From assembly GCA_009840545.1 (NCBI GenBank), contig VXNM01000009.1, forward strand, positions 374,559 through 438,558: 64,000 bases of DNA, given 5' to 3'. The notes beneath the pieces were generated by a model. The model made no database searches and was not told the origin of the DNA. It saw nothing but the letters and a program-made list of their open reading frames with translations. This document shows, piece after piece, positions 17,123 to 33,673 of this stretch (position 1 is its first letter; every line of letters begins with the position of its first letter). Position numbers and translations under genes: made by a program. Source of the DNA: Gammaproteobacteria bacterium (GTDB lineage Bacteria; Pseudomonadota; Gammaproteobacteria; Pseudomonadales; Azotimanducaceae).

Positions 17123-17204
17123 TTGGAGCAACCTTGGAAAGAGTTAGCGAACAATACAGTATATTCGCTGGCTAAAACTGACTGGTTAGTCTCGGGAACG
17201 AACA

Positions 17205-18010: not shown

Positions 18011-18589
18011 GTGAACAATTCAACTCGACTCGAAGTCGTCTCGAGTGACGACGAGCCTCTGATTCTTGTCGATAGCGACGACCAGCAGATTGGAACTCTC
18101 GACAAATCAACCTGCCATGACGGCGACGGGACCTTGCATCGAGCGTTCTCCTTGTTTGTCTTCAATTCACGAGGCGAGACTCTCCTCCAACGCAGGCACT
18201 CCGCTAAACGGCTCTGGCCCGGATATTGGTCTAATGGATGTTGTTCCCATCCGCGAAACGGAGAGTCAATCAATGAAGCTGTTGTACGTCGAGCTAGTCA
18301 GGAGTTGGGGCTCTCGGTCGATCCGTGCTTCTTGTTCAAGTTTCAATACAAGGCTTCTTTTCTTGATATTGGTACTGAATTCGAACTTTGTTCAGTATTT
18401 GTTAGCCACACCGATGAAGCCCCACTCGTCAACGCTACGGAAATCGAGGATTGGCAGTGGGTCACTCCAAGTGATTTAGACAAAAAAATCTCAACTCAAT
18501 CTTCTGCTCTCACTCCCTGGCTAAGAATCGAGTGGGAGCGGTTGCGGGCCGAATTTAGAGATCAAATTCGGCCACCGAGGGCAGTCTAA
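18011..18589 (+). CDS. idi: Isopentenyl-diphosphate delta-isomerase, type I
   Basis: The Nudix-fold isomerase interconverts IPP and DMAPP. The 192-residue product has GTLHRAFSLFVFN, the catalytic Cys in WSNGCCSHP (about 75-83), the Nudix-like RRASQELG, and the ELCS segment carrying the catalytic Glu region (EFELC near 120). It starts at a GTG at 18011. It is the first gene of a forward operon that continues with the HMG-CoA reductase-mevalonate kinase fusion, so it supplies DMAPP for a mevalonate-based isoprenoid route. A TATACT box at about 17999-18004 is only six bases from the start codon and would imply a nearly leaderless transcript; this is weak. Confidence 0.92.
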   Translation: MNNSTRLEVVSSDDEPLILVDSDDQQIGTLDKSTCHDGDGTLHRAFSLFVFNSRGETLLQRRHSAKRLWPGYWSNGCCSHPRNGESINEAVVRRASQELGLSVDPCFLFKFQYKASFLDIGTEFELCSVFVSHTDEAPLVNATEIEDWQWVTPSDLDKKISTQSSALTPWLRIEWERLRAEFRDQIRPPRAV

Positions 18590-18666
18590 CAAGACGAATC
18601 GTCAAGATTCTGACTGCAGCGACTTGTCGCCGTTAGCTCAAGCCAATTCTCGAACAAACTTGTAGA

Positions 18667-21015
18667 ATGTCCTACTTCATTGGCCCCGATCAGTCGCGCT
18701 TCAGGACTGCTTACAGCATGACACTCGATACCGCATCAAAATCAAGGTCGAGAATCCCCAATTTCTTCAAGTTGAGCATCAGAGATCGCATCGATGCCCT
18801 GCGAGCGCACACCGAGTTGACTGAAGACGATCTCTTAGCGCTTGAACACGGAACGCATACCTTGAGATGCCACGTGGCTGACAAGATGATCGAAAACGTA
18901 GTCGGTGTCTTTGGCTTACCACTTGGACTCGGTCTCAATTTTCTAATCGACGGTCGCGAGGTTATCGTGCCGCTGTCGGTTGAGGAACCTTCAATTGTTG
19001 CGGGGTTGTCCGGCGCTGCCCGAACTGCCCGATTGTCCGGCGGCTTTAGCACAGAGGTCTCGGACCCAATTCTCATTGGACAGGTTCAAGTTGTGAATCT
19101 GACTGATGTCGACTCGGCAAGGCAAGCTCTTCTCGACAGCGAGAGAGAAATCGTCAGCCTTGCAAACAGCCTACATCCGAAAATGGTTGCAAGAGGAGGT
19201 GGTGCGCAAGGAATAGAGGTGTTCCATCACCGAGTACCAGAAGGAGGACAGGAAGGCGCACCGGAACGTGACATGCTTGTATTGCATTTGCTAGTCGATA
19301 CTCGGGAGGCGATGGGCGCAAACATTGTCAACAGCATGTGCGAGAGCGTCGCCAGCCTCATCGAACGTATAGCTGGAGGCAGAGTCTTTCTAAGAATCCT
19401 CTCGAACCTGACCGATCGTGCGATTGTGCGGGCACATGTTCGAATTCCAGTCGCAAATTTAACAATGAAGGGTTATTCTGGAAAGGACGTCCGCGACGGA
19501 ATAGTACTTGCCAACGACCTTGCTCTTGTCGACCCCTATCGCGCGACCACCCACAACAAAGGCATCATGAATGGTGTCGATGCCATCGCAATTGCCACAG
19601 GCAACGACTTTAGGGCAATCGAAGCAGCGGCACACGCCTATGCTGCCCGATCTGGGCGTTATCGTGCTCTCACCCGATGGTACAAAGAAGAAAACGGCCA
19701 TCTCAAAGGCGAAATTGAAATACCTGTAAAGGTGGGCACTGTAGGTGGCTCATTGGAGACTAACCCGTCGGTTCGTCTCAATCATCGTCTACTAGGCAAT
19801 CCAAGTGCAACTCAATTGGCCGGCATTTTTGGGGCCGTTGGTTTGGCGCAGAACTATGCTGCGTTGAGGTCATTGTCTACAGCAGGAATTCAGCAAAACC
19901 ACATGACGCTGCATGCCCGCAGTGTTGCATCAACAGCAAAAGTACCTGAGGAACTATTCGACGAGGTTGTGGATGCACTGATCGAAAGTGGCGAAATCAA
20001 GGTATGGAATGCCCAGGAGATCGTTAGCCGAATTCAGAAAAAGACGAACGCAGTTCAATCTGCGGACACCGAGCCCCGCAGTTCCGCAAGCGGAAAAGTA
20101 ATACTCTTGGGTGAGCACGCCGTTGTATACGGGCGTTCTGCTTTGGCGGCTCCAATTCCGTTGGCCGTTGAATCTCGTGTTGTCGATGCAGAAGACGGTG
20201 TGCACCTCGTCATACCTCGATGGGGAGTTGAGCAAAGAGTCCCGACTCTGGACGAGCATCCGGCTGGCGCTGCGGGAATCCTTGCACTCTTGCTGCAACG
20301 TCTCGATTTGACCAATCGTTCTATGACAATCGAAGTTTTTCCAAACGTTCCTCGAGCCGTGGGGTTAGGCGGATCTGCAGCCCTAGCGGTGAGTGTGATT
20401 CGAGCTCTTGACGTGCACTTCGCAATCGGACTAAATGACAAGCGAATCAACGACTTTGCATTCGACTGCGAACGGGCAGCTCACGGTACTCCCTCAGGCG
20501 TCGATAACACCGTCGCGACTTACAGCAAACCAATTCTCTTCCGCGGACCGAGCCAAAGTGGCAAGTCGTCGTTTGAAGATCTCACCATTGCAAAACCTCT
20601 GCCGTTGGTCATCGCGATGACGGGCAACGAGAGCCTCACTGCCAAAACGGTGGCTAGAGTGAGGCAAGCTTGGCAATGCAACAAGGCACTCTACGAGCGA
20701 GTCTTTGATCAAATTGACGAGCTAACTCTTGCTGGTGCAGAAGCGGCCCGAGACGGATCGCTGGACGACCTTGGAGAGTTGATGAATCTCTGCCAAGGAT
20801 TTCTCAACGCACTGCAGGTCTCGACAAGAGAAATCGAAGAAATAGTGGAAGTTGCTCGTCGACATGGTGCAGTTGGCGCAAAGTTGACTGGAGGTGGTGG
20901 TGGAGGCTCCGTGGTTGCGCTTTGCCCAGACGGTCCCGAGCAAGTGGTTTCCGCTGTTGAAGCAATGGGCTATGAGGCACTTGCCTTCGAGGCAAGTGGC
21001 AGCAATGTACCGTGA
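18667..21015 (+). CDS. HMG-CoA reductase-mevalonate kinase fusion protein
   Basis: One 782-residue reading frame holds two successive mevalonate-pathway enzymes. Residues 28 to about 455 are a class II HMG-CoA reductase: SRIPNFFKL, catalytic Glu in VEEPS (about 105-109), MGANIVNSMCE, catalytic Lys298 in HNKGIMNG, Asp in TGNDFRA, and catalytic His in NHMTLHARS (about 410). Residues 472-782 are a GHMP-type mevalonate kinase: GKVILLGEHAVVYG, ATP loop GLGGSAALAVS (about 565), catalytic Asp in PSGVDNTV (about 611), and C-terminal KLTGGGGGGS (about 738). HMG-CoA would be reduced to mevalonate and then phosphorylated by the same protein. No stop or frameshift lies between the domains. An internal ATG at 18718 is an alternative start. 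Confidence 0.93.
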   Translation: MSYFIGPDQSRFRTAYSMTLDTASKSRSRIPNFFKLSIRDRIDALRAHTELTEDDLLALEHGTHTLRCHVADKMIENVVGVFGLPLGLGLNFLIDGREVIVPLSVEEPSIVAGLSGAARTARLSGGFSTEVSDPILIGQVQVVNLTDVDSARQALLDSEREIVSLANSLHPKMVARGGGAQGIEVFHHRVPEGGQEGAPERDMLVLHLLVDTREAMGANIVNSMCESVASLIERIAGGRVFLRILSNLTDRAIVRAHVRIPVANLTMKGYSGKDVRDGIVLANDLALVDPYRATTHNKGIMNGVDAIAIATGNDFRAIEAAAHAYAARSGRYRALTRWYKEENGHLKGEIEIPVKVGTVGGSLETNPSVRLNHRLLGNPSATQLAGIFGAVGLAQNYAALRSLSTAGIQQNHMTLHARSVASTAKVPEELFDEVVDALIESGEIKVWNAQEIVSRIQKKTNAVQSADTEPRSSASGKVILLGEHAVVYGRSALAAPIPLAVESRVVDAEDGVHLVIPRWGVEQRVPTLDEHPAGAAGILALLLQRLDLTNRSMTIEVFPNVPRAVGLGGSAALAVSVIRALDVHFAIGLNDKRINDFAFDCERAAHGTPSGVDNTVATYSKPILFRGPSQSGKSSFEDLTIAKPLPLVIAMTGNESLTAKTVARVRQAWQCNKALYERVFDQIDELTLAGAEAARDGSLDDLGELMNLCQGFLNALQVSTREIEEIVEVARRHGAVGAKLTGGGGGGSVVALCPDGPEQVVSAVEAMGYEALAFEASGSNVP

Positions 21016-21069
21016 GTACGACTCTGCTGCAAAGCACACAAAACTGTCAAGAGTCTCCAGGTAGCCCTA

Positions 21070-22215
21070 ATGCCATCCGAACTGGAACAGCTTGAAGTTT
21101 CCGAGGCTGCAACTTCCGACTCTACTGACCCACCCGTCCTTGTGACTGGTTCGTCCGGCCATGTCGGCGCAAATCTTGTACGCCGCCTTCTCCAGGATGG
21201 AACTCGCGTAAGGGTTCTCTTACGGCGCTTGGAAAGCAATGAAGCACTGGATGGGCTCGATGTGGAAAGAGTCTATGCAGACATAAGGGATCTTGATTCG
21301 ACACTTGCAGCAGTTGATGGCTGTGTTTCTGTGTTTCATTGTGCGGCTAAGATTTCGACTATCGACGGCAATAGTGCACACCAGCGGGAAATCTACGAGA
21401 CTAACGTATTGGGAACTCGAAACGTCCTACAAGCCGCACGTGAGGCAAACGCTGGTCGGGTTGTGGTTACTGGATCTTTCAGTGCAGTCGGCTACGACCT
21501 CGATAATCCGTCCGCTCCGAGTAACGAAACTATGCAGTTCTACCCAATGGAAAGAACCATGCCCTACGAACGTAGCAAGGTGCTGGCAGAGCATGAGTGC
21601 CTCAAAGCTGTCGCTCTAGGCCAGGACGTTGTGATTGCCACTTGCTGTGCTGTAGTCGGAGGCGCAGACTACCTGCCCTCTAGACTTGGAATGACTCTAT
21701 GCAAATACACCAGTGGCAAAGTTCGAGCGTACGTAGATGGTGGGTTTGCCTTTGTTGCGGCACGAGACATAGTTGAAGGGCACTTGTTGTGTATGCAGCG
21801 TGGCCGAACAGGTCAAAAGTACATTTTCGCAACCGAGTACAAAACCATTTCCGACATGTTGGACCTGTACGAGGAAGTGACAGGGATTCCACGTACGCAC
21901 CGGCGTATTCCAACACCTATCATGTATGTATTATCTGAAGTAGCAAGCTCTTACCTGAGCCGATTTCATCCGAATTTTCCTCAACGATTCACACCTGGCG
22001 CAATTCGCTTGCTCCAATTGTGTCGTCACGCTAGCATTGAAAAAGCCAAACATGAACTCGGCTACCAGCCTACGAGCATCCGGTCAGCAGTGCAAGAAGC
22101 CTATGCATTTCACTATGCTCGAGGTTCGATTACAAATCCCCGAGCTAAAGCTCCAGTGGAACCATTTTCCACAGCAGATGAGCAAGCTAGGGATGGAGGT
22201 CCGAAACAATCATGA
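21070..22215 (+). CDS. sdmB: NAD-dependent 3-beta-hydroxysteroid dehydrogenase/decarboxylase, SdmB-like
   Basis: A 381-residue extended SDR. The Rossmann motif is TGSSGHVGANL (about 26-36), and the catalytic pair lies in YERSKVLAE (Tyr and Lys near 166-170). It belongs to the 3-beta-HSD/NSDHL-like group. In Methylococcus, SdmB works with the Rieske oxygenase SdmA to remove one C-4 methyl group from sterols by decarboxylating a 3-keto intermediate. Here the next gene, overlapping by four bases (ATGA), encodes a Rieske oxygenase, which reproduces that pairing. Functional assignment rests on family, pairing and the surrounding sterol genes. The C-terminal 25 residues look disordered. Confidence 0.82.
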   Translation: MPSELEQLEVSEAATSDSTDPPVLVTGSSGHVGANLVRRLLQDGTRVRVLLRRLESNEALDGLDVERVYADIRDLDSTLAAVDGCVSVFHCAAKISTIDGNSAHQREIYETNVLGTRNVLQAAREANAGRVVVTGSFSAVGYDLDNPSAPSNETMQFYPMERTMPYERSKVLAEHECLKAVALGQDVVIATCCAVVGGADYLPSRLGMTLCKYTSGKVRAYVDGGFAFVAARDIVEGHLLCMQRGRTGQKYIFATEYKTISDMLDLYEEVTGIPRTHRRIPTPIMYVLSEVASSYLSRFHPNFPQRFTPGAIRLLQLCRHASIEKAKHELGYQPTSIRSAVQEAYAFHYARGSITNPRAKAPVEPFSTADEQARDGGPKQS

Positions 22216-23312
22216 GAATTAGTGCAAATCGCCCGCCAGCATTCGAAGATGCAAAACGACTGCGGCAACAGGCTCGGGCCACAGGCTTGGACCCTAACTA
22301 CTGGTATGCAGTTGAGGAAGTACGACAAATCAAGCCAGGATCCGTCGTGGAGATCGTTTTCTGGAAACACTCCATCGCTCTCTTTCGATCCGAAGATGGT
22401 TCGTTTCACGCAGTCGAAAATCGATGTGCGCACAGACAGATAAAACTGTCGCTGGGAACCGTCGATAAATGTCGCCTTGTGTGTGCATACCACGGATGGC
22501 AGTATGACGAAGATGGACGATGTGTTGAGATTCCACACGATCGATTTGGGCGAGGCTTTCCTAAACTCACATTAAGAAGTTATCCCGTCAAGGTACGCTA
22601 CGGTTTGGTGTGGCTGTTTCCGGGTGATCCGGATGTGGCAAAACGACGACAGATCCCCGACATTCCGGAGCTGGAAGGTCCGAAACCGTGGGCTTGTGTT
22701 CCGTTAGCCTTCACTTGGTCAGCCCATCATTCGATGGTGATTGACAACGTTAGCGACTTCACTCATGCACACCTGCACCGCAAGTACCGTCCTTTCGAGG
22801 GTGCTGACCTTACACGGTGCGAGACGATAGAGGACAGCGTTCATGTTGCCTATGACTCTCGGGTCGGTCGAGGACGTATTTCTGGTCGGTTTGTCGAACA
22901 CGACCAGATCGACACAAGTCACATTGAGCTCTGTTATCAATATCCGTATCAATGGTCCAATACGGATAACGCAATTAAGCACTGGCTCTTTGTATTGCCA
23001 GTCGACGAAAGGACCACGCGGTTGTTCTTCCTGTTTTACTTCAAGTCGTTGAAGATTCCACTCTTACCCGTACGAATTCCGCATTTCGCAATGAAACGAG
23101 TCATGAAGATCTCGAATCGACTCTTAATCGGACCATTGCTCGATCAAGACCGATTTGCGGTCGAGGCAGAACAAGAGGCTTACGAGCAACATTGGGATGC
23201 ACCGCCTGTTGAGCTGAATCCCGCGGTAAACGCCTTTCAGACACTAACTGTTCGGAAATGGCAGGAGTGGCTGGATCGTGAGGAGACCGTTGCACTGCCC
23301 AGTCGACCCTGA
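22212..23312 (+). CDS. sdmA: Rieske non-heme iron oxygenase, SdmA-like sterol C-4 demethylase
   Basis: The 366-residue protein has a Rieske [2Fe-2S] centre with ligands Cys72, His74, Cys91 and His94 (CAH and CAYH). A catalytic iron site follows around residues 179-189 in NVSDFTHAHLH. The fold is the oxygenase alpha-subunit type that includes SdmA, pheophorbide a oxygenase and the cholesterol 7-desaturase DAF-36/Neverland. Its start codon overlaps the stop of the SdmB-like gene, which supports a C-4 demethylation role: oxidation of a C-4 methyl to a carboxylate. Reductase partners are not encoded nearby. A desaturase role is the main alternative. Confidence 0.82.
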   Translation: MRISANRPPAFEDAKRLRQQARATGLDPNYWYAVEEVRQIKPGSVVEIVFWKHSIALFRSEDGSFHAVENRCAHRQIKLSLGTVDKCRLVCAYHGWQYDEDGRCVEIPHDRFGRGFPKLTLRSYPVKVRYGLVWLFPGDPDVAKRRQIPDIPELEGPKPWACVPLAFTWSAHHSMVIDNVSDFTHAHLHRKYRPFEGADLTRCETIEDSVHVAYDSRVGRGRISGRFVEHDQIDTSHIELCYQYPYQWSNTDNAIKHWLFVLPVDERTTRLFFLFYFKSLKIPLLPVRIPHFAMKRVMKISNRLLIGPLLDQDRFAVEAEQEAYEQHWDAPPVELNPAVNAFQTLTVRKWQEWLDREETVALPSRP

Positions 23313-23321
23313 GGTTAGTAC

Positions 23322-24392
23322 ATGGTGCTAACTGGTACTTCGATGCTGTTGGCGATGGGAACTGTGCTTGGTTTCGTCATCGTCCTTCTGGTTGGATCCG
23401 TTCTCTTGCCTGGACGAAAAATTGAATTGGCAGAGGACCAAGGTGACACTCGTGTCTTCAAGTTAAACGGTCTTACTTTGTTCTTAATTACCGTTCTCGT
23501 TGTTGGCATGGGACAAGTCTTGGGTTGGTTCTCACTTGCATTTCTCTACAACCATTTTTTCGCCCTTCTCATCGCGGCAAATGTTTTTGCATTTGCCCTT
23601 GCAGGTTGGCTCTACTTGGGGAGCGCGACGGTCGGTGAAGCCCCAAAGGGCTTCTTGAGAGAGTTTTTCTTAGGAAGGGATCTCAACCCGGTCTGGTTTG
23701 GAATTGACCTAAAGTTCTTCAGCTATCGTCCGTCATTGATCGCGCTTGCGCTCTTCAACATTTCGTTTGCTGTCGTACAGTTTGAGACGTACGGCGAATT
23801 GACTTTCGCAATGGTGCTTTATCAGATTTTCACTTTTGTGTACGTTTTCAACTATTTTCAGTTTGAGTACGGAATGGTGCACACATGGGACATCGTCAGC
23901 GAACGATTCGGCTGGATGTTGGTATGGGGAAACATTGTTCTAGTTCCTTTCTTCTATTGCATTGCTGGCTGGTCGCTGGTGCACGCTGAAGGAACTCTAT
24001 CGCCAATCTTTGGAGGAGCACTTGTGCTCTTGTTCCTGTTTGGGTTCTGGCTATTCCGGGGAGCGAACGAACAAAAGCACCGATTCAAACAGGACAAGAA
24101 AACAAAAATATGGGGACGTCCCGCCGAGACTTTGGATGGTCGATTGCTAGTTTCCGGATTTTGGGGTATTGGCCGCCACCTCAACTACACCGGCGAGATC
24201 TGTGTGTACTTTGCGTTTGTTCTCACCACGGGTTTTGAGTCTTGGATCCCTTTCCTTTTGTTGGCATGGTTAGTAGGATTGCTCTTGCATCGATCATGGC
24301 GCGATGAGCGGCGGTGCCGTGCCAAGTACGGTGAACTTTGGGACCGTTACGTAGAACGTGCGCGGTTCTCTATGATCCCCTTTGTCCATTGA
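23322..24392 (+). CDS. Sterol reductase of the ERG4/ERG24/DHCR7 family
   Basis: The 356-residue polytopic membrane protein has about eight hydrophobic segments. It carries both family signatures near the C-terminus: LLVSGFWGIGRHLNYTGEI (about 272-290) and HRSWRDERRCRAKYG (about 322-336) followed by LWDRYVERA. These enzymes reduce a sterol double bond with NADPH. Placement directly before CYP51 suggests C-14 reduction, because CYP51 creates the delta-14 bond. Delta-7 or delta-24(28) reduction cannot be excluded. It is shorter than typical eukaryotic members (about 430 residues). Only nine bases separate it from the Rieske gene and eight from CYP51. Confidence 0.85.
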   Translation: MVLTGTSMLLAMGTVLGFVIVLLVGSVLLPGRKIELAEDQGDTRVFKLNGLTLFLITVLVVGMGQVLGWFSLAFLYNHFFALLIAANVFAFALAGWLYLGSATVGEAPKGFLREFFLGRDLNPVWFGIDLKFFSYRPSLIALALFNISFAVVQFETYGELTFAMVLYQIFTFVYVFNYFQFEYGMVHTWDIVSERFGWMLVWGNIVLVPFFYCIAGWSLVHAEGTLSPIFGGALVLLFLFGFWLFRGANEQKHRFKQDKKTKIWGRPAETLDGRLLVSGFWGIGRHLNYTGEICVYFAFVLTTGFESWIPFLLLAWLVGLLLHRSWRDERRCRAKYGELWDRYVERARFSMIPFVH

Positions 24393-24400
24393 GAAAGCTG

Positions 24401-25786
24401 ATGGCAGACCAGGTTCAAGAAACACGAACCGAACGACCAAATCAAGGAAACGGAGTACCAGTAATGGCAGGCGGGCTGCCGCTTCTTGGGCATCTTCGAG
24501 AATTTCAAACGGATCCTGTCTCGTTGCTCTTGAAAGGCAATGACGAACACGGCGATCTCTTCCGTTTCAAAATCGGACCGTGTGACTTCGTTCTCTTCAG
24601 TGGACTAGAGGCGCACGAAGCGTATTTCAAGGCACCGGACGATCAACTTGATCCGAAGTCTGTCTACAAATTTACAGTCCCGATCTTTGGGCGAGGTGTC
24701 GCATACGACGTTGCACCCGAAGTCATGACTGAACAACTCGGTTTTCTCTTTCCCGCGCTGCGTGAATCCTCTATGCGCCGCTACGTAGCGATTATGTTCG
24801 AAGAGGCAAGCACCTTCGCAGACGGAATGGGGACAGAAGGAGTTCTGGATCTTCCTGTAGCGATGAACCAACTCACGGTGAATATCGCCAGTCGCTGCTT
24901 CTTGGGGGAGGAAATTCGACGCGAAGTAGATGAAGAATTCGCAGATGCATATCACGAACTTCAGAATGGAATCAATACGCTGGGTTTTTTCTTTCCTCGG
25001 ATTCCGATTCCCTCGCATCGCCGGCGGGACAAGGCGCGGCGGAAGATAACCGAAATTTTCACTCGCATCATGAACGAACAATCGGACTCAGAAACTGAGA
25101 GTGATAACTTCATGCAAACCCTCATGAACGCACGCTACAAGAACGGAAGGAAATTGACGGTAGACGAAGTAACCGGAATCTTGTTGACGGCTTTGTTTGC
25201 AGGCCAACACACAAGTGCGATTCTTGCCACGTGGACCGGTCTCGAGTTAGTGAGAGACAATTCCTACCTCAGTCGGACCAGGCAGGAAATAGGGGAAATA
25301 TTCGGGAAAGACGGTGTCTTGACATTTGAGGGTCTCAAAAAGCAACGAGTAATGGAGAATGCCGTCAGGGAATGTGAACGCCTCCATCCACCACTAATAA
25401 TTCTCGTCCGCAAGGTAATGAAGCCATTGAATTACAGGGATCAGATCGTGCCGAAAAACACTTTGGCAATGATTTCTCCTGCCGTCTCCCACCGACTTGC
25501 AAGTTTGTATTCACATCCAGATCGGTTCAATCCTGATCGATTTGAAGCTCCTGCAAACGAAGATGTAGGAGCACTGATAGGATTCGGAGGCGGCAAGCAT
25601 CGGTGCATGGGCAAGAATTTCGCGATCTTGCAGATAAAAGCGCTATGGACTGTCTTGATGGATCGCTTTGACTTTTCTCTCAAAGCGCCATTTCCAAGTC
25701 CGAATTACGGCAGTTGGGTGACCGGACCGAAATTGCCATGCGAACTGCATTACCGTAGTCGTTCGACAAAAACTGTCTTTCATTGA
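24401..25786 (+). CDS. cyp51: Sterol 14-alpha-demethylase CYP51
   Basis: This cytochrome P450 (461 residues from the ATG at 24401) removes the C-14 methyl of lanosterol-type sterols by three oxidations. The two CYP51 substrate-recognition signatures are present: YKFTVPIFGRGVAYD (89-103) and the I-helix AGQHTS (267-272). ExxR is at 324-327 and the heme-binding FGGGKHRCMG has its Cys at about 402. There is no N-terminal membrane anchor and no fused ferredoxin, unlike Methylococcus CYP51. An in-frame start at 24338 inside the reductase gene is possible but less likely. The last four bases overlap the TTG start of the cyclase fusion. Confidence 0.95.
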   Translation: MADQVQETRTERPNQGNGVPVMAGGLPLLGHLREFQTDPVSLLLKGNDEHGDLFRFKIGPCDFVLFSGLEAHEAYFKAPDDQLDPKSVYKFTVPIFGRGVAYDVAPEVMTEQLGFLFPALRESSMRRYVAIMFEEASTFADGMGTEGVLDLPVAMNQLTVNIASRCFLGEEIRREVDEEFADAYHELQNGINTLGFFFPRIPIPSHRRRDKARRKITEIFTRIMNEQSDSETESDNFMQTLMNARYKNGRKLTVDEVTGILLTALFAGQHTSAILATWTGLELVRDNSYLSRTRQEIGEIFGKDGVLTFEGLKKQRVMENAVRECERLHPPLIILVRKVMKPLNYRDQIVPKNTLAMISPAVSHRLASLYSHPDRFNPDRFEAPANEDVGALIGFGGGKHRCMGKNFAILQIKALWTVLMDRFDFSLKAPFPSPNYGSWVTGPKLPCELHYRSRSTKTVFH

Positions 25787-28700
25787 TCGAATCCGTCTCT
25801 GCTAATTACGATGTGGCCATCATTGGTGCGGGGCCTGTCGGTAGCTTCTGTGCTTTAGCCCACGCTCGAAAGGGCGCACGAGTAGCTCTGCTTGAAGCCA
25901 ATCCAAAGGCTTCTAGACGATTAGCTGGCGAGTGGCTGCATCCACCTGCAGTTCGCATGCTACGCGACTTAGGTATTCATTTGGACGCGTCGCCTCATAG
26001 CAGCCCGGGAACGGGTTTCGTGGTTTTTCCGGAAGACCGTTCGGAACCCATTGAGCTCCCATATCCCGGAGAAACTACGGGCATGGCGTGCGAACATGCA
26101 ACTCTCGTATCCAAGCTTCACAACGCTCTCGAAGACTGTACCGAAGTAGACCGTTACGAAAGCGCTCGAGTGCGTGCAGTCGAGAATGGAAGAGTTACAT
26201 TTTCTATGGACGGCGATCAGAAGTCACTTGCAATCGATCGGTTAATCGGCGCAGACGGGCGCGCTTCGGTCGTCCGCAAGTCGCTGGGACTGCCTACAGA
26301 ACGCATGACATGTTCGCGCATGATCGGAGTCGTTCTCGAAGGAGTCGAACTCCCGTATGAGGGTTACGGGCATGTGATCATCGGCGGACCCGGTCCCATT
26401 CTCATGTTCCGTTTGGGTACCGATAAGGTCCGCATCATCGTTGACGTACCTTTGGATCACTGGACTCCCCGTGATCGGGTGTCAATGCTATCGGAGTCTT
26501 ACGCCAATCTCTTGCCAGAGTCGATCTGTGAATCGTTTTCTACAGCCCTCCGCGATGGGGTGTTTCAAGCTGCAGGCAATGAATTGCTGCCGCGAGCCAC
26601 CTACGGAAATTCTCGTCGGGTGCTAATTGGTGATGCCGCAGGCCACTATCACCCGTTGACCGCGGTCGGAATAACTCTTGGTTTTAGCGACGCACTGGAT
26701 ATTGCGGAGACTCAGGATTTTCGCAAGTTCACCGCTAAGAGGCTGGATTCTGTCCGCGCTCCCGAACGCCTCGCATTTGGTCTTTACGAAGTCTTTGCCG
26801 ACCATCGTCCGGAATCAGTCGCTGTTAGGCAGGCAACCTATCGTCGATGGCGGAAGAGCTCAAAGATTCGAAAACACACGATGAATCTCCTTGCTTGCGA
26901 GAACGTATCGATTATTCGATTAGGACTGACATTTTTCTCAATCATGGCTCGTGCTATTGCGAGCTGTTATCCGAGATCGTTCAAGTCTAAGGAATGGCGA
27001 CGGACACGAGACGTTACTGGAGCGTTAGTGTCTCGGGTAGGACATTTTCTAGGTGGATTCCAGTCTCTTAAAGCAACAGACAGTGCCACAGGGAAGAAAC
27101 CCGAACGTGTCTGGAACAGATTGTCTAGATCACTACTAGTTTCCGTTAAATCGGACGACATCAAGCCCCAAGCAGCCAACGCTTTGCACGATGCAGAGCC
27201 CGACGGCCGTGAAGCTCTTCAAAGTGCAATTGAGCAGCTTCTTTCGCTTCAACACGAAGACGGCAGCTGGGAAGGCGAAATGCTTTGGTGTCCAATGCTT
27301 ACGGCTCAATACGTGCTCTTGAGCTTCGTACTGAACCAACCTCTCGAGCCTCGTCGGCGACGTCTTGTGCTCAAACAATTCGAACGTACTCAATTAGAGG
27401 GCGGAACGTGGGGTCTACACGAACACTCGCATCCCTATCTGTTTGTTACCACGCTGGTATACGTTGCTGCTCGTTTGCTCGATGTCGAAAAAGATGACCC
27501 GCTAATCGCACAGGCTGGACACTTTTTGCGAACCGAGGATGTGACTGCCATACCAAGTTGGGGCAAGTTCTGGCTAGCCATTTTGAACCTCTACGATTGG
27601 AAAGGATTGAACGCAGTGCTGCCGGAACTGTGGATTCTCCCTCATCGAATTCCGTTGCACCCATCAAACTGGTACTGTCACACGCGTCTCATCTATATGG
27701 CTATGTCTGTTGTGTACTCGAGCCAATTTCAGGTACCTGTTACGCGGGTAATTGAAGAGTTGCGTGACGAGCTCTATCCGGACAAGTTCGACAGCATCAA
27801 GTTTAGGTCGTCGAAGAACCGAATCCGAAGCGAGGAAGTATTTTCGCCACCCACTGCTCGGCTACGAATTTGTTATGCCTTGGGTCGGGTATACCAACTA
27901 TTCCACAGTAAACGACTTCGAAATAAGTGTGTTAGCGAACTGGTCGAAAGAGTTCGCTGGGAGATGAACAGCTCCGACCACACAAGCATCTCTCCAGTTA
28001 GCGGTTTCCTCAATATTCTTGCATTGTGGTTGCAAGATCCAGACGATATCGACTGTCAGAAAGCACTAGTCCGAATCGAAGGATGGATTTGGGAAGACGA
28101 AAGAGATGGCACTCGAATAACAGGTGCAAGAAGCGCTTCCTGGGACACAGGGTTTGCGTTGCAAGCGCTCGCGAACACTCCAAAAGCGGGCGGCGTACCA
28201 GATGCCCTCGACCGAGCAACCAAGTTCTTAGTAAGCCAGCAAATTCGGGAAAGTTTCGACGGATTTAGTTCAGCTTATCGAAATGACCCGAAGGGTGGCT
28301 GGTGTTTTGCAGGAATATGGCACGGCTGGCCCGTAACCGACTGCACTGCTGAGGCGATATTAGGAGTACTTGCAACAAGACCAAACGCAATTGATCCCGA
28401 GGCAATCCGCGAAGCTACTGAATTTATGCTACGTGGTCAGAACAACGATGGCGGATTCGGGAGCTACGAAGCTCGACGTTCTCGGTCCAGTCTCGAATGG
28501 CTCAATCCGGCCGAAATGTTCGGTGAGTCGATGACCGAAAATTCTTATGTCGAGTGCACGGCCTCCTGCCTGGAAGCCCTAGCTAGCAGTCGTACTCACT
28601 TCCCCTCTCTTGTAGATGAAGCTTTCGACCGTTCCATTTCTCGCAGTGAAGAATGGCTCCGCCAGTCCCAGGAAAGCAATGGATCCTGGCGTGGAGTATG

Positions 28701-29157
28701 GGGAGTGCAGTACATCTACGGTACCTTGTTTGGAATAAGAGGATTGAAAGCAGCTGGTGCCAATCCCAGTGATGCTGCCCTGCGTCTTGCATGCAAATGG
28801 CTACTCGAGAAACAACGTGAGGATGGAGGATGGGGTGAGCACCACAGCGGATGCTGGAAGGGCTGCTTTGTCCCACATGACGAGAGCCAGGTAATTCAGA
28901 CAGCGTGGGCGTTGATTGGTCTGCTCGAAGCTGGCGAATCCAACTGGGTTGCGATTTCTCGCGGCGCAAAATTCTTAGCTGATAGCCAACTAGATGACGG
29001 TTCGTGGGAGCGACAGGATATGGTGGGAGTGTTTTTTCGCACAGCACTGTTGGACTACGCTCTATATCGACAGTATTTCCCGCTTCATGCACTTAGCCTG
29101 TACGAGCGACGTCGCGAGGCTCGCAAAGTTGGGAAATCGACAGCCACTCGCCCTTAG
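25783..29157 (+). CDS. Squalene monooxygenase-oxidosqualene cyclase fusion protein
   Basis: A single 1124-residue frame (TTG start overlapping the CYP51 stop) joins two consecutive enzymes. Residues 1 to about 405 are an FAD monooxygenase of the squalene epoxidase type: GAGPVG at 15-20, GEWLHPPAV, IGADGR, and GDAAGHYHPLTAVGI with Asp284, followed by a hydrophobic segment like the membrane anchor of epoxidases. After a linker of about 50 residues, residues 460-1115 are a full-length triterpene cyclase with QW repeats (for example QREDGGWGEHHSG). It has the oxidosqualene-cyclase motif DCTAE at Asp853, not the DXDD of squalene-hopene cyclases, and the C-terminal YRQYFPLHALS. Product: a lanosterol- or cycloartenol-type protosterol made directly from squalene. 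Confidence 0.94.
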   Translation: MIESVSANYDVAIIGAGPVGSFCALAHARKGARVALLEANPKASRRLAGEWLHPPAVRMLRDLGIHLDASPHSSPGTGFVVFPEDRSEPIELPYPGETTGMACEHATLVSKLHNALEDCTEVDRYESARVRAVENGRVTFSMDGDQKSLAIDRLIGADGRASVVRKSLGLPTERMTCSRMIGVVLEGVELPYEGYGHVIIGGPGPILMFRLGTDKVRIIVDVPLDHWTPRDRVSMLSESYANLLPESICESFSTALRDGVFQAAGNELLPRATYGNSRRVLIGDAAGHYHPLTAVGITLGFSDALDIAETQDFRKFTAKRLDSVRAPERLAFGLYEVFADHRPESVAVRQATYRRWRKSSKIRKHTMNLLACENVSIIRLGLTFFSIMARAIASCYPRSFKSKEWRRTRDVTGALVSRVGHFLGGFQSLKATDSATGKKPERVWNRLSRSLLVSVKSDDIKPQAANALHDAEPDGREALQSAIEQLLSLQHEDGSWEGEMLWCPMLTAQYVLLSFVLNQPLEPRRRRLVLKQFERTQLEGGTWGLHEHSHPYLFVTTLVYVAARLLDVEKDDPLIAQAGHFLRTEDVTAIPSWGKFWLAILNLYDWKGLNAVLPELWILPHRIPLHPSNWYCHTRLIYMAMSVVYSSQFQVPVTRVIEELRDELYPDKFDSIKFRSSKNRIRSEEVFSPPTARLRICYALGRVYQLFHSKRLRNKCVSELVERVRWEMNSSDHTSISPVSGFLNILALWLQDPDDIDCQKALVRIEGWIWEDERDGTRITGARSASWDTGFALQALANTPKAGGVPDALDRATKFLVSQQIRESFDGFSSAYRNDPKGGWCFAGIWHGWPVTDCTAEAILGVLATRPNAIDPEAIREATEFMLRGQNNDGGFGSYEARRSRSSLEWLNPAEMFGESMTENSYVECTASCLEALASSRTHFPSLVDEAFDRSISRSEEWLRQSQESNGSWRGVWGVQYIYGTLFGIRGLKAAGANPSDAALRLACKWLLEKQREDGGWGEHHSGCWKGCFVPHDESQVIQTAWALIGLLEAGESNWVAISRGAKFLADSQLDDGSWERQDMVGVFFRTALLDYALYRQYFPLHALSLYERRREARKVGKSTATRP

Positions 29158-29307
29158 AACTTGCAACTAGCCACAAGCCTGCCAAATAGAAGCGATTCCA
29201 GGAAACAGCTCAGCAAGTCGATATTTTGTTGGCTTGTATTACATTCCGAAGCAAATTACACTGTGAATTCACGCTGCATTCCGAGCCACATCCAGGAACC
29301 TTGACTC

Positions 29308-30489
29308 GTGGAAAAGTCTGAACGCACTCACATACTGGATGTCCTTACCAGTCACATTGCGAACGATACAACTGCAGATGCTGGTGGCATCATGCGTGCA
29401 CCGATGTCAGACTTCACATGCCCGAAATTACTTGAACAAGAGTGCGAAGTATTGTTTCGAAACACACCTTTGTGCATGGGTCTCTCGTCTGAACTTCCTA
29501 AACCCTACACATATTGGTCTGACAATGCCTCAGGTCTCCCCATCCTCATGGTTCGCGATGAAGAAGGCAAATTTCGAGCATTCGCAAACGCTTGCCGGCA
29601 TCGAGGGAGTCAAGTTGTACTTGAGGGTCGTGGTTCAAAAATGCGCTTTACCTGTCCATTCCATGCATGGACCTACGCAATCGATGGCAAATTGGAGTCC
29701 GTGAACAAGAGCAATCACTTCGGGGACGTCTCGAGCTTGGACTTACATCTCATCGAATTGCCCTCTGCGGAATTTCATGGCACATTGTGGGTACGACCGA
29801 CTCCAGGAGACCCGCTAGATGAAAGCGAGTGTCTTGGCGGTCTTCAACGCGACTTGGTTCACTGGAATTTTCCAGATTATTCGTTCGCAGGTACGCAAAT
29901 CATCGATGCAAGGATGAACTGGAAGATCGGTGTCGATTCCTATGGTGAGATTTACCATCTAAACGTCCTACACACTAAGACCTTGGACAAAGAGGTCGTG
30001 GGTAACGCGCAGACATTTGACAGTTTTGACAAAAACTTGCGCATGGTTATTGCCAACGAGAAGCTCAATCTAATGAGATTGCTGTTGCCAATTCGAGAGA
30101 AATGGCCTTACAAGCAAATAACTTACACGGTCTATTTCTTCTATCCCAACGTCATCATGTTGGTGGACTTATTTGGAGTAGATTTCTTGCGAATCTTCCC
30201 TCTGGACAACTCTCCTTCCAAGTCACGGACAATTCATGCGTGGTACATCGACCCCAACGTCGAAAAGTACTTCAAAGATCACGAGTCAGCATACGAGGAT
30301 AGGATGAAGCGATTCAGATCAGTTGTTGAAGATGAGGACTACGCGATCGCTGCGGACATGCAAGTTACCGCCGAACGAGGGACACAGACGGAGATTGTGC
30401 TTGGGCGAAACGAGGTGGCTCTCCAACACTTCCACAATGCGCACAGAATGGGACTTTCCCGAGACCTGCTGCCAGTTGAGGACTTGTAG
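29308..30489 (+). CDS. Second Rieske non-heme iron oxygenase, probable sterol-modifying
   Basis: The 393-residue protein is a ring-hydroxylating-type oxygenase alpha subunit. Rieske ligands are Cys96, His98, Cys116 and His119 (CRH, CPFH). The mononuclear iron ligands lie in GEIYHLNVLH (His-x4-His, about 215-224). Its spacing and C-terminal domain differ clearly from the SdmA-like protein, so it is not a recent duplicate. It follows the cyclase fusion by 150 bases on the same strand and ends the forward run. A sterol oxidation (desaturation, hydroxylation or the second C-4 methyl) is likely from context, but the position cannot be read. It starts at a GTG (29308). Confidence 0.8.
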   Translation: MEKSERTHILDVLTSHIANDTTADAGGIMRAPMSDFTCPKLLEQECEVLFRNTPLCMGLSSELPKPYTYWSDNASGLPILMVRDEEGKFRAFANACRHRGSQVVLEGRGSKMRFTCPFHAWTYAIDGKLESVNKSNHFGDVSSLDLHLIELPSAEFHGTLWVRPTPGDPLDESECLGGLQRDLVHWNFPDYSFAGTQIIDARMNWKIGVDSYGEIYHLNVLHTKTLDKEVVGNAQTFDSFDKNLRMVIANEKLNLMRLLLPIREKWPYKQITYTVYFFYPNVIMLVDLFGVDFLRIFPLDNSPSKSRTIHAWYIDPNVEKYFKDHESAYEDRMKRFRSVVEDEDYAIAADMQVTAERGTQTEIVLGRNEVALQHFHNAHRMGLSRDLLPVEDL

Positions 30490-30576
30490 CTCGTCTCTGG
30501 AACAGGAGAGATCGTACTGCATCGGATTCGAGTACTAGTGCATTAGTCGTTTACGAGCCTTCCATTTGACCGGACT

Positions 30577-31320
30577 CTATCCCAGCACACTGTAGTTGCC
30601 ATCCAAAATGATGCGAATGGAGACAAAGAGTCCCAAGAGCGGACAAAGGACCCAGGGGGCGTTTGTTCCTAGGACATAGAGGTACAGGTCACGTCGAGAG
30701 ATTTCGACTTGGCGATTAGCCACGAAGAAACTGATCCAGTACACACTCGTCATGTAGACCCACTGCCAAAACATGGCTAGTCCAAGGATTCCCGCCACAC
30801 GCGGGGGTAGGAAATAGACCGTAAATGATGCGTAAAGCAACAGTGTTGGAAGAAGCGACAAGAAACCGTTGGCCGTGTCCACATTGAAACCGTACGTCCG
30901 TCGATCTGCAAACGACGGATCGTATTGCGAGTAAGTTGCCCACACATCAGCCCAGAGTGAAGGAGACAGGACCTGCGTCCACGGAACTTTGGATGCAAAG
31001 AACTCAATATGTGGAATTCGGCCCGTTTTGATTTTCCGTTCTCGCCAATACACGGTTCGTTTTTCGACACGGGATCGCTGAAGGTACAGACACGCTTCCC
31101 AGTAGCAGATCAGTACGTTAATAGAAAAGAACAGGATGAGAATCGTATGTACGAGACTAAGATTCTGGTGTAAGTAGTATCGAGTGCCCAGTCCAATTCC
31201 AGTCAAGCAAACCACGACAAGTGTGGTGAATGACAGGACACGAATCGTTGGCTTTCCGCTGGTGCGGAGCTCGTCGTTCTCGACTTCTGCCAGGGAATCC
31301 TTCCCCGAAGTCTGAGTCAT
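30577..31320 (-). CDS. EBP-like membrane protein, candidate sterol isomerase
   Basis: The 247-residue protein has about five hydrophobic segments (near 28-50, 56-80, 148-168, 174-200, 214-238). It resembles emopamil-binding protein, the eukaryotic delta-8/delta-7 sterol isomerase: a WATYSQYD segment like the W..Y...D of EBP, a Gln/Trp-rich helix, and a last helix with TNAPWVLCP. That stretch matches the EBP Asn-x-x-Trp-x-x-x-Pro pattern, whose Asn and Trp are active-site residues in human EBP. The acidic pair of EBP is not clearly conserved; a Glu in CYWEACLYL is a candidate. Its start overlaps the squalene synthase stop by four bases, linking it to the pathway. Confidence 0.5.
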   Translation of the reverse strand: MTQTSGKDSLAEVENDELRTSGKPTIRVLSFTTLVVVCLTGIGLGTRYYLHQNLSLVHTILILFFSINVLICYWEACLYLQRSRVEKRTVYWRERKIKTGRIPHIEFFASKVPWTQVLSPSLWADVWATYSQYDPSFADRRTYGFNVDTANGFLSLLPTLLLYASFTVYFLPPRVAGILGLAMFWQWVYMTSVYWISFFVANRQVEISRRDLYLYVLGTNAPWVLCPLLGLFVSIRIILDGNYSVLG

Positions 31321-32399
31321 CTACGAGTTTTGCGGACTAGAGATTCGATGGCAGATAGAGTAGGCACCGTTGTATTGAACAACCAACGCAATGCGCGATT
31401 TGAACGAAGTGCAAAGTTGACCGCTGCAACCGAACTGTACACTAGTCGACGCGAAATCTTGACTTCATCTCCCTTTCGAAACTTGGGATTGTCGTGGATT
31501 CGACGGAGGGTCAGGCTGGCAAATGCGAGGGTCCATCCAAGGAAGCGACGAATACCAATTTCCTGTTTCGGCATGAGAGTGAGGTAACGCAAACTCTTCT
31601 CAAGACGACTTCTTGCAACCCCAAGAAGCCTAACGATTCTCGGATCTGCGCTGGAGCTACCCCGTTGCGAGGCTTGAGCGGCTTCGGCTTGACCGGAGAA
31701 TAGACTGCGAGGCAACCAGCAGACGCTTCGCTTCTTATCTTCACAATGGTCTTTCATGATGTTGATAAGTTGCAAGCCGCTACCGAATTTTGATGACAGA
31801 GAGAACAGTTCATCTTTTCGAGACGCAATGTCATCGGAATAGTCGCAGAGCACCTCGGTGATCATTTCACCCACGACGCCGGCAACGAAATAACAATAAC
31901 GATCTACCTGTTCGAGATCTGGAAGTCCCTCGGAACCTGTATCTACAAACTCGCTCATACCCCGGCACATGGTCTCAACACACTTCTCGATTGGATCAGT
32001 TTGAGAACGTGGCATCTGCTTGTGCAAGCCCATCACAAGCTCGGTATTGGCCACCAAATCTCTCTCGTCTCTGTTTGTTCCTTCAGAGAGCAGAGGCGCA
32101 AGGTCTGTGGTGAATGAATCCGGCGACTCTTTGCGACGTACAACATCGGCAAACCGATGTAGAAACTGTTTCTTGAAGGACCCATCAAGCTCCGGTTCAT
32201 CTTCAATCGTGTCGGCGATGCGGCAAAGGAGATAGGCATTCCCGATTGCATAGCGTACGTCAGGAGGCAGTTGAGGAATCGTCAATGCGAAAGTCCGGGA
32301 CACGCGGCTGAGCGCATGAGTCTGATACTCAATCGCAGGGCTACTCGCGAGTTGCTTAGACTTAGAGATACGATCAGTTTGTCTTACTTCTGCATCCAC
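31317..32399 (-). CDS. Squalene synthase
   Basis: The 360-residue enzyme joins two farnesyl diphosphates into squalene through presqualene diphosphate. Both aspartate-rich motifs are present: DTIED (63-67) and NIMKDHCED (213-221). SRTFALTIPQLP (about 34-45), RYCYFVAGVVGEM (about 167-179) and the tail are typical of the eukaryote-like squalene synthase (SQS) family rather than the HpnCDE route. NADPH is the expected reductant. It ends by overlapping the EBP-like gene. A 248-base gap separates it from the upstream methyltransferase gene; a TTGGGA and TACTAT pair spaced 18 bases apart in that gap may be its own promoter. No C-terminal membrane anchor is obvious. Confidence 0.94.
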   Translation of the reverse strand: MDAEVRQTDRISKSKQLASSPAIEYQTHALSRVSRTFALTIPQLPPDVRYAIGNAYLLCRIADTIEDEPELDGSFKKQFLHRFADVVRRKESPDSFTTDLAPLLSEGTNRDERDLVANTELVMGLHKQMPRSQTDPIEKCVETMCRGMSEFVDTGSEGLPDLEQVDRYCYFVAGVVGEMITEVLCDYSDDIASRKDELFSLSSKFGSGLQLINIMKDHCEDKKRSVCWLPRSLFSGQAEAAQASQRGSSSADPRIVRLLGVARSRLEKSLRYLTLMPKQEIGIRRFLGWTLAFASLTLRRIHDNPKFRKGDEVKISRRLVYSSVAAVNFALRSNRALRWLFNTTVPTLSAIESLVRKTRR

Positions 32400-32647
32400 A
32401 CTACTTGCTCTTTAAACGTACGGAAACATTTGTCACCAACCAGCACCCAATCCAAAAAGGTGCCTCGGGAGTCCCAAATAGTACAACACCAAGTCCATAA
32501 TTCCCAAATGTTAGAGAAATACCTAACGTTGGCGAAAGAGTGGCAAGTCAGTGTTTTGCCAATGAACTACACCGATCTAGCTCGGACTAATTGAGTAAAG
32601 ATACAGCGAGGCGTTGTGCAGCGAGTTCCCCTGTATCTAGCTGATTG
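32400..32647 (-). promoter_or_regulatory. Gap upstream of squalene synthase with a possible promoter
   Basis: No gene is seen in these 248 bases. On the reverse strand TTGGGA and TACTAT boxes separated by 18 bases lie roughly 80 to 120 bases before the squalene synthase start. A 7-base direct repeat CAGCGAG sits near 32604-32625. The promoter match is mediocre. Confidence 0.25.
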
Positions 32648-33643
32648 CTAGCTTGGTTTGCGAGCATGTACAAGGAAACTGGGCGTAAATATTCCGAGTT
32701 TGCCTGCTTCTGTGAGCGAATCGGCAGCAGCATTCAGAATTCGGGATGTTTCGGAAGTACCCTTCGGAGCTAACTTCAACCTTTCTAGAATACGTGTCAG
32801 AACAGCTGTAAAAGATCGTCCCACTGGAGTGCGAGCAGCTGAAGATATTGAAAAATCGCGCCCTTCCAACGCCATGTACCAAGGAGTGGACGGATCACCT
32901 ACTACAACTTGTTGATCCAGCTTTTCAACCACCTCAAAACCAGCAGATTCCACCGCTGCGACATATTCGTCAGCTGACAGAAGGTCTGGTGTTGCGTTGT
33001 TGCGTTCAATCTGAGCTCGAATTTGAACATGTGAAGTGTTGGACGCATCAAACTTATCTGTGAGAGTCCAGTCAATGAATGCGGCTTCGGCACCTGGCTT
33101 TAGCAACCTAAAGAGTTCACAAAACGTCCTCTTTCTGTCCGGCGCATGGCAAATTGCCTCGAAGGAGTACAGGGCATCGAAGGTGCCATCCTTCAACGGA
33201 ACATCCATAAAGTCTGCGTACAGAAATGAGCACGAATCGCCTAGTCCCGCCTGATCAATCAATTTCTCGCCACGCTGAATCTGATAGGCATTAAAGTTGA
33301 TGCCAACGATTTTCGCTCCAGTAGACCGACCGATGGTTATGAGTGGACCACCAACTCCGCACCCGACGTCCGCTACGATCATTTTGGGACCGATCCGAAG
33401 GAGTTTCGCGATTCCTTCTTCATGCCTTTGCTGAGACGACCGGAGATTTTCTCCCGGGCGTCTCGGAGAGAAATGAAATGTTGCACCCCAACCAAACTCG
33501 TAAAAGGACGTTACCGCATCGTAGAATCGGCTGACGAGCCTTGGTTGTTCTGTAACTCGAAGAGCGTCGTCGGAATCTAGTTTCTCAATGTTTCCAAGAC
33601 CGTGAAAGTCCTGCAAAGCATGCTGTAGTTCATCTCGGTTCAT
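32648..33643 (-). CDS. Sterol C-24 methyltransferase (ERG6/SMT type)
   Basis: The protein (331 residues from the ATG at 33643, preceded by AGGA; a TTG at 33673 is an alternative) methylates the sterol side chain at C-24 using SAM. It carries the signatures specific to sterol methyltransferases. Region I is YEFGWGATFHFSPR (about 48-61), the SAM loop is DVGCGVGGP (92-100), and region III is YSFEAICHAPD (159-169). These regions bind sterol and are absent from ordinary UbiE-like enzymes. It implies an ergosterol- or phytosterol-like 24-alkyl sterol. It heads the leftward sterol operon that converges on the forward operon. Confidence 0.93.
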   Translation of the reverse strand: MNRDELQHALQDFHGLGNIEKLDSDDALRVTEQPRLVSRFYDAVTSFYEFGWGATFHFSPRRPGENLRSSQQRHEEGIAKLLRIGPKMIVADVGCGVGGPLITIGRSTGAKIVGINFNAYQIQRGEKLIDQAGLGDSCSFLYADFMDVPLKDGTFDALYSFEAICHAPDRKRTFCELFRLLKPGAEAAFIDWTLTDKFDASNTSHVQIRAQIERNNATPDLLSADEYVAAVESAGFEVVEKLDQQVVVGDPSTPWYMALEGRDFSISSAARTPVGRSFTAVLTRILERLKLAPKGTSETSRILNAAADSLTEAGKLGIFTPSFLVHARKPS

Positions 33644-33673
33644 GCGGGTCCTGAGGAATGAAGACGGTGTCAA

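Follow-up and report, generated by a model that had tools for sequence, protein, structure and literature searches.

The 64,000-nucleotide window analysed here, part of contig VXNM01000009.1 from the genome of an uncultured gammaproteobacterium (assembly GCA_009840545.1; G000 in our survey), encodes a candidate sterol-biosynthesis island of eleven adjacent open reading frames (ORFs), all of them open, at positions 18011-33673. The genes form two convergent units separated by 87 bp, eight on the plus strand (18011-30489) and three on the minus strand (33673-30577), and within the plus-strand unit neighboring genes overlap by at most 4 bp and lie at most 150 bp apart when CYP51 is counted from its ATG. 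We assigned domains by Pfam and NCBIfam profile scans together with comparison to solved structures, the window outside about 13-38 kb being covered by the ORF listing alone. A sequence-only reading of this stretch had described eleven adjacent genes in two convergent units and proposed an enzyme family for each; the ORF listing and profile scans bear out the layout, and the scans and structure matches agree with the families and their order.

The plus-strand unit opens with two genes of isoprenoid precursor supply: a type I isopentenyl-diphosphate delta-isomerase of the NUDIX class (IDI, 18011-18589; NF002995, 175 bits against a cut-off of 127) and a 782-residue fusion of class II HMG-CoA reductase with mevalonate kinase (HMGR-MVK, 18667-21015), which contains PF00368 (335 bits) and GHMP domains and scores above cut-off with both TIGR00532 (374 bits) and TIGR00549 (236 bits). 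Next come an SdmB-like SDR, a putative C-4 decarboxylase/reductase (21070-22215; NF052578, 295 bits), and, overlapping it by 4 bp, an SdmA-like Rieske oxygenase, a putative C-4 methyl oxidase (22212-23312; NF052579, 410 bits). These are followed by an ERG24-type sterol C14 reductase (23322-24392; PF01222, 227 bits) and the sterol 14-alpha demethylase CYP51 (24338-25786; PF00067, 182 bits), whose ORF starts at a TTG at 24338 and has its first in-frame ATG at 24401, directly past the ERG24 stop. The unit closes with a 1124-residue squalene epoxidase/oxidosqualene cyclase fusion (25783-29157; PF08491, PF13249 and PF13243) and a second Rieske oxygenase, RO2 (29308-30489; PF00848 and PF00355). The minus-strand unit comprises a 247-residue membrane protein with a predicted EBP fold and a weak PF05241 match (30577-31320), a squalene synthase (SQS, 31317-32399; PF00494 at about 153-154 bits, TIGR01559 at 98 bits and under its cut-off of 287), and a sterol C-24 methyltransferase (SMT, 32648-33673; PF08498 Sterol_MT_C, 74.1 bits against a cut-off of 21.7), whose ORF begins at a TTG at 33673 with the first in-frame ATG at 33643, the position at which the sequence-only reading ended the island. 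Predicted promoters and terminators were no more frequent than in shuffled sequence (3 against a mean of 12.2, and 15 against 16.1), so the ends of the two units rest on gene spacing.

Squalene epoxidation and cyclisation, both expected from the sequence-only reading, are thus encoded in one polypeptide, with the epoxidase part at about residues 9-400 and the cyclase part at about residues 478-1112. In its N-terminal half the fusion resembles squalene monooxygenase 6c6n (E 9e-25), including the GDA...HPLT stretch, and residues 485-1109 match human lanosterol synthase (LSS) 1w6k (E 4e-126). Six human LSS residues with catalytic roles, H232, V453, D455, C456, Y503 and C533, are identical in the fusion (H633, V851, D853, C854, Y895 and C925); the DCTAE motif is present, and of the lanosterol-type residues compared only T381 is replaced. 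We rejected a squalene-hopene cyclase identity, as the long cyclase matches of that kind, in G021 and G051, are just 26-28% alike to the fusion, and PF13243 gives them 434 and 458 bits where the fusion gets 203. For CYP51 the best 19 matches among solved chains all bear the name CYP51 or 14-alpha demethylase, the lowest E being 4e-106, and the ERG24-type protein matches the solved delta14-sterol reductase 4quv (E 1.4e-64); since this C14 reductase is canonical, a delta8 intermediate is expected. The SdmB model is the best of 37 families for the SdmB-like SDR, with HpnA next at 220 bits, and the SdmA model is the best of 11 families for its Rieske partner.

The membrane protein at 30577-31320 had been read as perhaps an isomerase; no Pfam family reaches its cut-off for this protein, and its predicted fold, which is that of EBP, speaks for the suggestion. 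AlphaFold2 run on a 23-row alignment gave pLDDT 88.1 and pTM 0.82 (pLDDT was 45.8 with only 4 sequences), and among the best 50 of 228 Foldseek matches in the PDB a probability of 1.00 was reached by two human EBP chains alone, 8w0r (E 0.02, TM 0.53/0.60) and 6oht (E 0.36, TM 0.53/0.63), the next-highest value among the matches listed being 0.21. The predicted fold resembles human EBP (TM 0.53-0.63) at a sequence identity of 14%. All four members of the first alignment match PF05241 at a threshold of E 10 (best 9.8e-6), and five residues are invariant in all 23 rows: E75, D148, N151, N220 and W223. These may match the active-site residues E80, E122, T125, N193 and W196 of human EBP, and human EBP H76 has no evident counterpart in the family. 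Based on the structural model, we consider the protein a probable sterol delta8-delta7 isomerase. Counting against this assignment, the window protein scores 13.8 bits with PF05241 (E 0.075; gathering cut-off 25.7), just 5 of the 23 members of the wider alignment match that family at E <=1, a PDB profile search with the 23-row alignment did not retrieve EBP, and the lowest Foldseek E is 0.02, with none at 0.001 among the best 50 of 228.

To place the island we surveyed 97 genomes, namely G000, 17 genus mates, 43 genomes of the family and 36 of the order (G and L numbers denote genomes and loci of this survey). The fusion occurs in 10 of the 17 genus mates at 57-72% identity; it is uninterrupted in seven of the ten (G003, G006, G009, G011, G014, G015 and G017), lies on separate contigs in G008 and G016, and is broken in frame in G005. 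Outside the genus (79 genomes) no match covered both halves, and the two long cyclase matches there are the squalene-hopene cyclases. A eukaryotic contaminant was rejected on the strength of this recurrence and of the 529-kb contig that carries the window. In G017, L026 (G017:C114, 7298-9247) encodes a second, unfused cyclase-like protein of 649 residues, 54% identical to the cyclase half of the fusion.

A wider contig scan with the fusion alignment returned 203 relatives, and the best 80 of them, to which the following counts refer, all cover both halves. Their records are named as Gamma- and Alphaproteobacteria, Nitrospira, Binatota, Acidimicrobiia, Dehalococcoidia/Chloroflexi, Gemmatimonadetes, Bryobacterales and Rhodothermales; two loci (L053 and L062) name sponges outright, and the bin prefixes COS, RHO, IRC and SB06 presumably denote sponge projects. 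These loci include five genus mates (L029, L030, L031, L040 and L041, which are G014, G011, G003, G008 and G017), and gene content was scored at E 1e-8, at least 30% of the query and at least 40% identity; since some loci are incomplete, the counts are lower bounds. Beside the fusion (80 loci) we found CYP51 in 60, ERG24 in 56, and SdmA-like and SdmB-like genes in 55 each, followed by SMT (34), the EBP-like gene (22), SQS (6), HMGR-MVK (4), IDI (2) and RO2 (1). All five core genes are present in 53 loci, and in 52 they stand in the order of the window on one strand. In a separate comparison of 13 loci the core order was also seen in genus mates. All eleven genes are seen in the window. They are also seen in G003, where they are divided between two contigs, the flank on either side is that of the window, and the SMT match is interrupted by stops; G014 has ten of the eleven in place and RO2 elsewhere. 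The neighborhood of the sterol cassette includes a flavin amine-oxidase-like protein in 14 of the 80 loci (at L076:14312-15691, PF01593 64 bits).

A FastTree phylogeny of the fusion (the window plus the 80 loci, 3 rows unlabelled) needs 9 class-label changes for 9 groups, the minimum being 8. Although fusions from different phyla are 54-72% alike, the groups for the most part stay together and rarely switch; for the published cassette gene trees the authors infer more transfer than this (PMC9531527). Around the island, the left flank consists of an acyl-CoA dehydrogenase and a 221-residue protein on the minus strand (15938-17870), shared among the 13 loci compared with G003 only. The right flank is a DinG-like helicase, also on the minus strand (34104-36455); G003 likewise has it beside SMT, SQS and the EBP-like gene. 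No clear GC shift marks the region (0.486-0.527 in 2-kb bins of 18-34 kb against 0.470-0.520 elsewhere), and Rfam and tRNA scans of the window gave no match.

The comparison with genus mates gives the mevalonate end of the island a particular significance. The sequence-only reading had listed mevalonate formation, and an HMG-CoA reductase is indeed there; what the survey adds is that this enzyme is an HMGR-MVK fusion that appears to stand in for a missing native copy. A match to mevalonate diphosphate decarboxylase (MDD) is present in all 18 genus genomes, while DXR (PF02670), the enzyme of the alternative MEP pathway, was matched in 0 of these 18 against 11 of 11 others searched (type II DXR-like enzymes were not searched for); the genus therefore seems dependent on mevalonate. 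The MDD distribution also led us to reject the idea that the mevalonate pathway arrived with the sterol genes. In all 11 genus mates examined that have a native HMGR-MVK, it lies between a gene resembling phosphomevalonate kinase (PMK) and the gene for exodeoxyribonuclease III, in an operon whose amidase-MDD part is in line in G002, G007, G008, G010 and G011 and inverted in G004, G006, G009, G015, G016 and G017. In G000 and G003 the same two neighbors are separated by 88 and 89 bp, counted with the stop codon and in G003 from match ends, with no HMGR-MVK between them, and because the G000 site lies inside a 1.02-Mb contig the missing copy is not an assembly gap. G014 has 2.35 kb between the two genes, again without HMGR. 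The sole HMGR-MVK match (E 1e-60) in G000, G003 and G014 is the copy in the sterol island, a divergent unfused HMGR not having been searched for.

We propose that the island copy replaced the native one, both the direction and the time of the exchange being inferred. The five island copies of the genus form a clade (100/100) apart from the 13 native copies (100/99), whereas the HMGR-MVK genes near the cassette in L032 and L033 group with other genera of the family, outside the genus island clade. A simpler history, in which the native gene was relocated beside the sterol genes and never replaced a second copy, would gain from the approximately unbiased (AU) test, in which a single clade for all 18 genus copies costs 1.8 log units and is not rejected (p 0.307). 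We nonetheless regard relocation as rather unlikely, given that G015 and G016 each hold two HMGR-MVK genes, one island and one native, and that the best tree parts the two kinds with the support just stated. With the AU test at this value, duplication within the genus and transfer from outside are both possible origins of the island copy.

How far the cell would depend on the island turns on the remaining genes of the pathway. The island IDI is the single match in G000, type II IDI not having been searched for, and in the native operon the MDD (236 bits), exodeoxyribonuclease III and amidase assignments are all over cut-off. The PMK-like gene is likelier to be PMK than a second mevalonate kinase, as in native operons it adjoins a fused mevalonate kinase. 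We give about even odds to the island being the cell's sole supplier of HMG-CoA reductase, IDI and probably mevalonate kinase in an organism without the MEP pathway, a claim that rests on HMGR and IDI because the PMK-like gene is not clearly PMK. In other genera of the family, L027 (G051) and L028 (G021) carry IDI and HMGR-MVK near a squalene-hopene cyclase and a squalene synthase, and L028 also encodes HpnA (486 bits) and HpnN (879 bits), each above cut-off; the sterol island may have taken over such a hopanoid-type neighborhood.

Close RO2 relatives (65-85%) occur in six of the 17 genus mates (G003, G009, G014, G015, G016 and G017), all with the cyclase, and a second ERG4/ERG24-type reductase is found in the same six; each is therefore present in 6/10 genus mates with cyclase against 0/7 without (Fisher p 0.035 each, from five such tests uncorrected for number or relatedness). 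In five of those six RO2 lies outside the sterol locus, and 4.6-5.8 kb on either side of it held no relatives of the window's sterol genes except a 25% Rieske match in L151; distant relatives (44-50%) also occur where the cyclase is absent, for instance in G001 and G004. Such a pairing might suggest that the island builds or tailors a specialised steroid, for example an oxidised steroid or the core of a sarasinoside-like saponin, with RO2 and SdmA/B as tailoring oxygenases; the msb locus has been proposed for sarasinosides, with MsbA/B assigned to side-chain oxidation (PMC7074536). We consider this improbable: there is no glycosyltransferase among the eleven genes, the five-gene core spans several bacterial groups, and RO2 at 40% identity or more stands at just one of the 80 loci, the rest of those genomes not being covered. 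Because the core recurs in 53 of the 80 loci and RO2 in one, the core looks like a general sterol core. G000 also has another SMT-like gene (C5), a further ERG4/ERG24-type gene and one FA_hydroxylase-family gene on the contig of the window; these may supply later steps absent from the island, namely C-24(28) reduction and C-5 desaturation.

In the three other tests, SMT at 63% identity or more is present in 5/10 genus mates with cyclase and 0/7 without, the EBP-like gene in 10/10 and 3/7, and SQS in 10/10 and 4/7. SQS matches in G005, G007, G008 and G013 contain one in-frame TGA each. Six cyclase-less genus mates (G001, G002, G004, G007, G010 and G013) have one or two SMT-like genes each, 31-43% identical to the window SMT; the sole one checked, in L159 (G001), scores 71 bits with Sterol_MT_C, and these genes may alkylate host-derived sterols. 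If the island's genes served likewise to alkylate or edit host sterols, its de novo part would be dispensable or decaying, a scenario consistent with the retention of SMT-like (6/7), EBP-like and SQS genes in genus mates without cyclase and with the broken cyclase frame of G005. We think it very unlikely for the island, in view of the eleven open frames of the window and of a fusion that is uninterrupted in seven of the ten genus mates.

Taken together, we favor, with a probability of roughly 0.8, the interpretation that this locus is a chromosomal sterol-biosynthesis island whose core is the cassette of sponge symbionts and which has taken over the HMG-CoA reductase step of its genome. IDI and HMGR-MVK would feed isoprenoid units to squalene synthase, and the fusion would turn squalene into its epoxide and the epoxide into lanosterol. 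Removal of the 14-methyl group by CYP51 and the C14 reductase would yield a delta8 sterol, SdmA and SdmB would take off one C-4 methyl or both, the EBP-fold protein would shift the double bond from delta8 to delta7, and SMT would alkylate C-24. The HMGR-MVK of the island, having replaced the native copy of the mevalonate operon, would serve housekeeping isoprenoids as well as sterols. Judging from the gene set, the product is likely a 24-methylene or other 24-alkylated delta7 sterol, either 4-demethylated or retaining one 4-methyl, in keeping with the C-4/C-14-demethylated, C-24-alkylated bacterial sterol predicted earlier. Several observations weigh against this interpretation in one part or another: the fusion has alanine at the position of human LSS T381; the SdmA-like (410 bits) and SdmB-like (295 bits) proteins fall under the NCBIfam equivalog cut-off of 600 bits; the AU test allows all HMGR-MVK copies of the genus to form one clade; the G000 PMK-like protein stays under cut-off both for mevalonate kinase (78 bits) and for the PMK models (74 and 71 bits); G000 is 96.5% complete; and SQS, EBP-like and SMT-like genes persist in 4/7, 3/7 and 6/7 of the genus mates that have no cyclase.

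Because most of the steps that lead from mevalonate to a 24-alkyl sterol lie together here, the locus lets one test whether bacteria of this kind produce the side-chain-alkylated sterols that serve as animal and algal biomarkers, and the EBP-fold protein can be tested as a candidate for the delta8-delta7 step of such clusters. That the only HMGR has probably been captured suggests a way for a complex, eukaryote-like pathway to become locked into a bacterial genome. If the island is the sole supplier, it would be indispensable, its loss stopping all isoprenoids and not only sterols, and a biosynthetic island would have become fixed in the genome through capture of a housekeeping step and a flux-controlling enzyme.

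Our comparison with known systems corrects the novelty that the sequence-only reading had implied for the gene set, since the same core was published in 2020 and 2022 (PMC7074536, PMC9531527). The msbA-F genes of a gammaproteobacterial symbiont of the sponge Melophlus, described in 2020 and including a bifunctional epoxidase/cyclase, share with the window the overlapping SDR and Rieske genes, C14 reductase, CYP51, epoxidase/cyclase and SMT, with the order A-F taken from the gene letters (PMC7074536). There the squalene synthase is on a separate scaffold and the locus ends without sterol genes, unlike the window, which has IDI, HMGR-MVK, RO2, the EBP-like gene and SQS inside the locus. A core of ERG24-CYP51-LSS flanked by the same genes (CSG) was reported in 2022 from 115 of 537 Ircinia metagenome-assembled genomes, with a 'DFR' and a hypothetical protein before the core and SMT or squalene synthase after it on the other strand (PMC9531527). 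The mean CSG length of 5910 bp is close to the 5836 bp of the window's three genes, and the Ircinia LSS is therefore probably an epoxidase-cyclase fusion as well; mevalonate genes, the EBP-like gene and RO2 go unmentioned in the accessible description of these clusters (PMC9531527). The window shows the features of both published cassettes: the SdmB-SdmA-ERG24-CYP51-cyclase order, the fusion, and SMT and SQS downstream on the opposite strand.

The earlier view that bacterial sterol synthesis goes no further than lanosterol, parkeol or 4-methyl sterols no longer holds either, given the publication of active bacterial SMTs (PMC10070321), of cholesterol in Enhygromyxa and of a 21-kb sterol cluster in Calothrix NIES-4105 (PMC10202945). 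The SMT clusters of uncultured bacteria reported in 2023 likewise combine SMT with sdmA, sdmB and an oxidosqualene cyclase and include 'fused SMO/OSC homologs', and bacterial SMTs were shown there to be active in vitro (PMC10070321). Calothrix and Enhygromyxa share with the window a large bacterial sterol set with SdmAB, CYP51 and C-8 isomerisation; they differ in that SMT is unmentioned in the accessible text and that the Enhygromyxa genes are dispersed (PMC10202945). The methanotroph pathway also has CYP51 and SdmAB, but its NTF2-type reductase 8,14-Bsr gives an 8(14) sterol, where the window encodes a canonical C14 reductase (PMC13277303). As for HMGR-MVK within such a cluster, or loss of the native copy, we found no report in the open-access literature searched (supplements excluded) or in the text consulted of PMC13001223. 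Thus, the core cassette, including the fused epoxidase-cyclase of sponge symbionts, is already known, and what seems to be new is the extended locus around it: the HMGR-MVK link to housekeeping metabolism, the EBP-fold protein, and the co-occurrence of RO2 with a second reductase.

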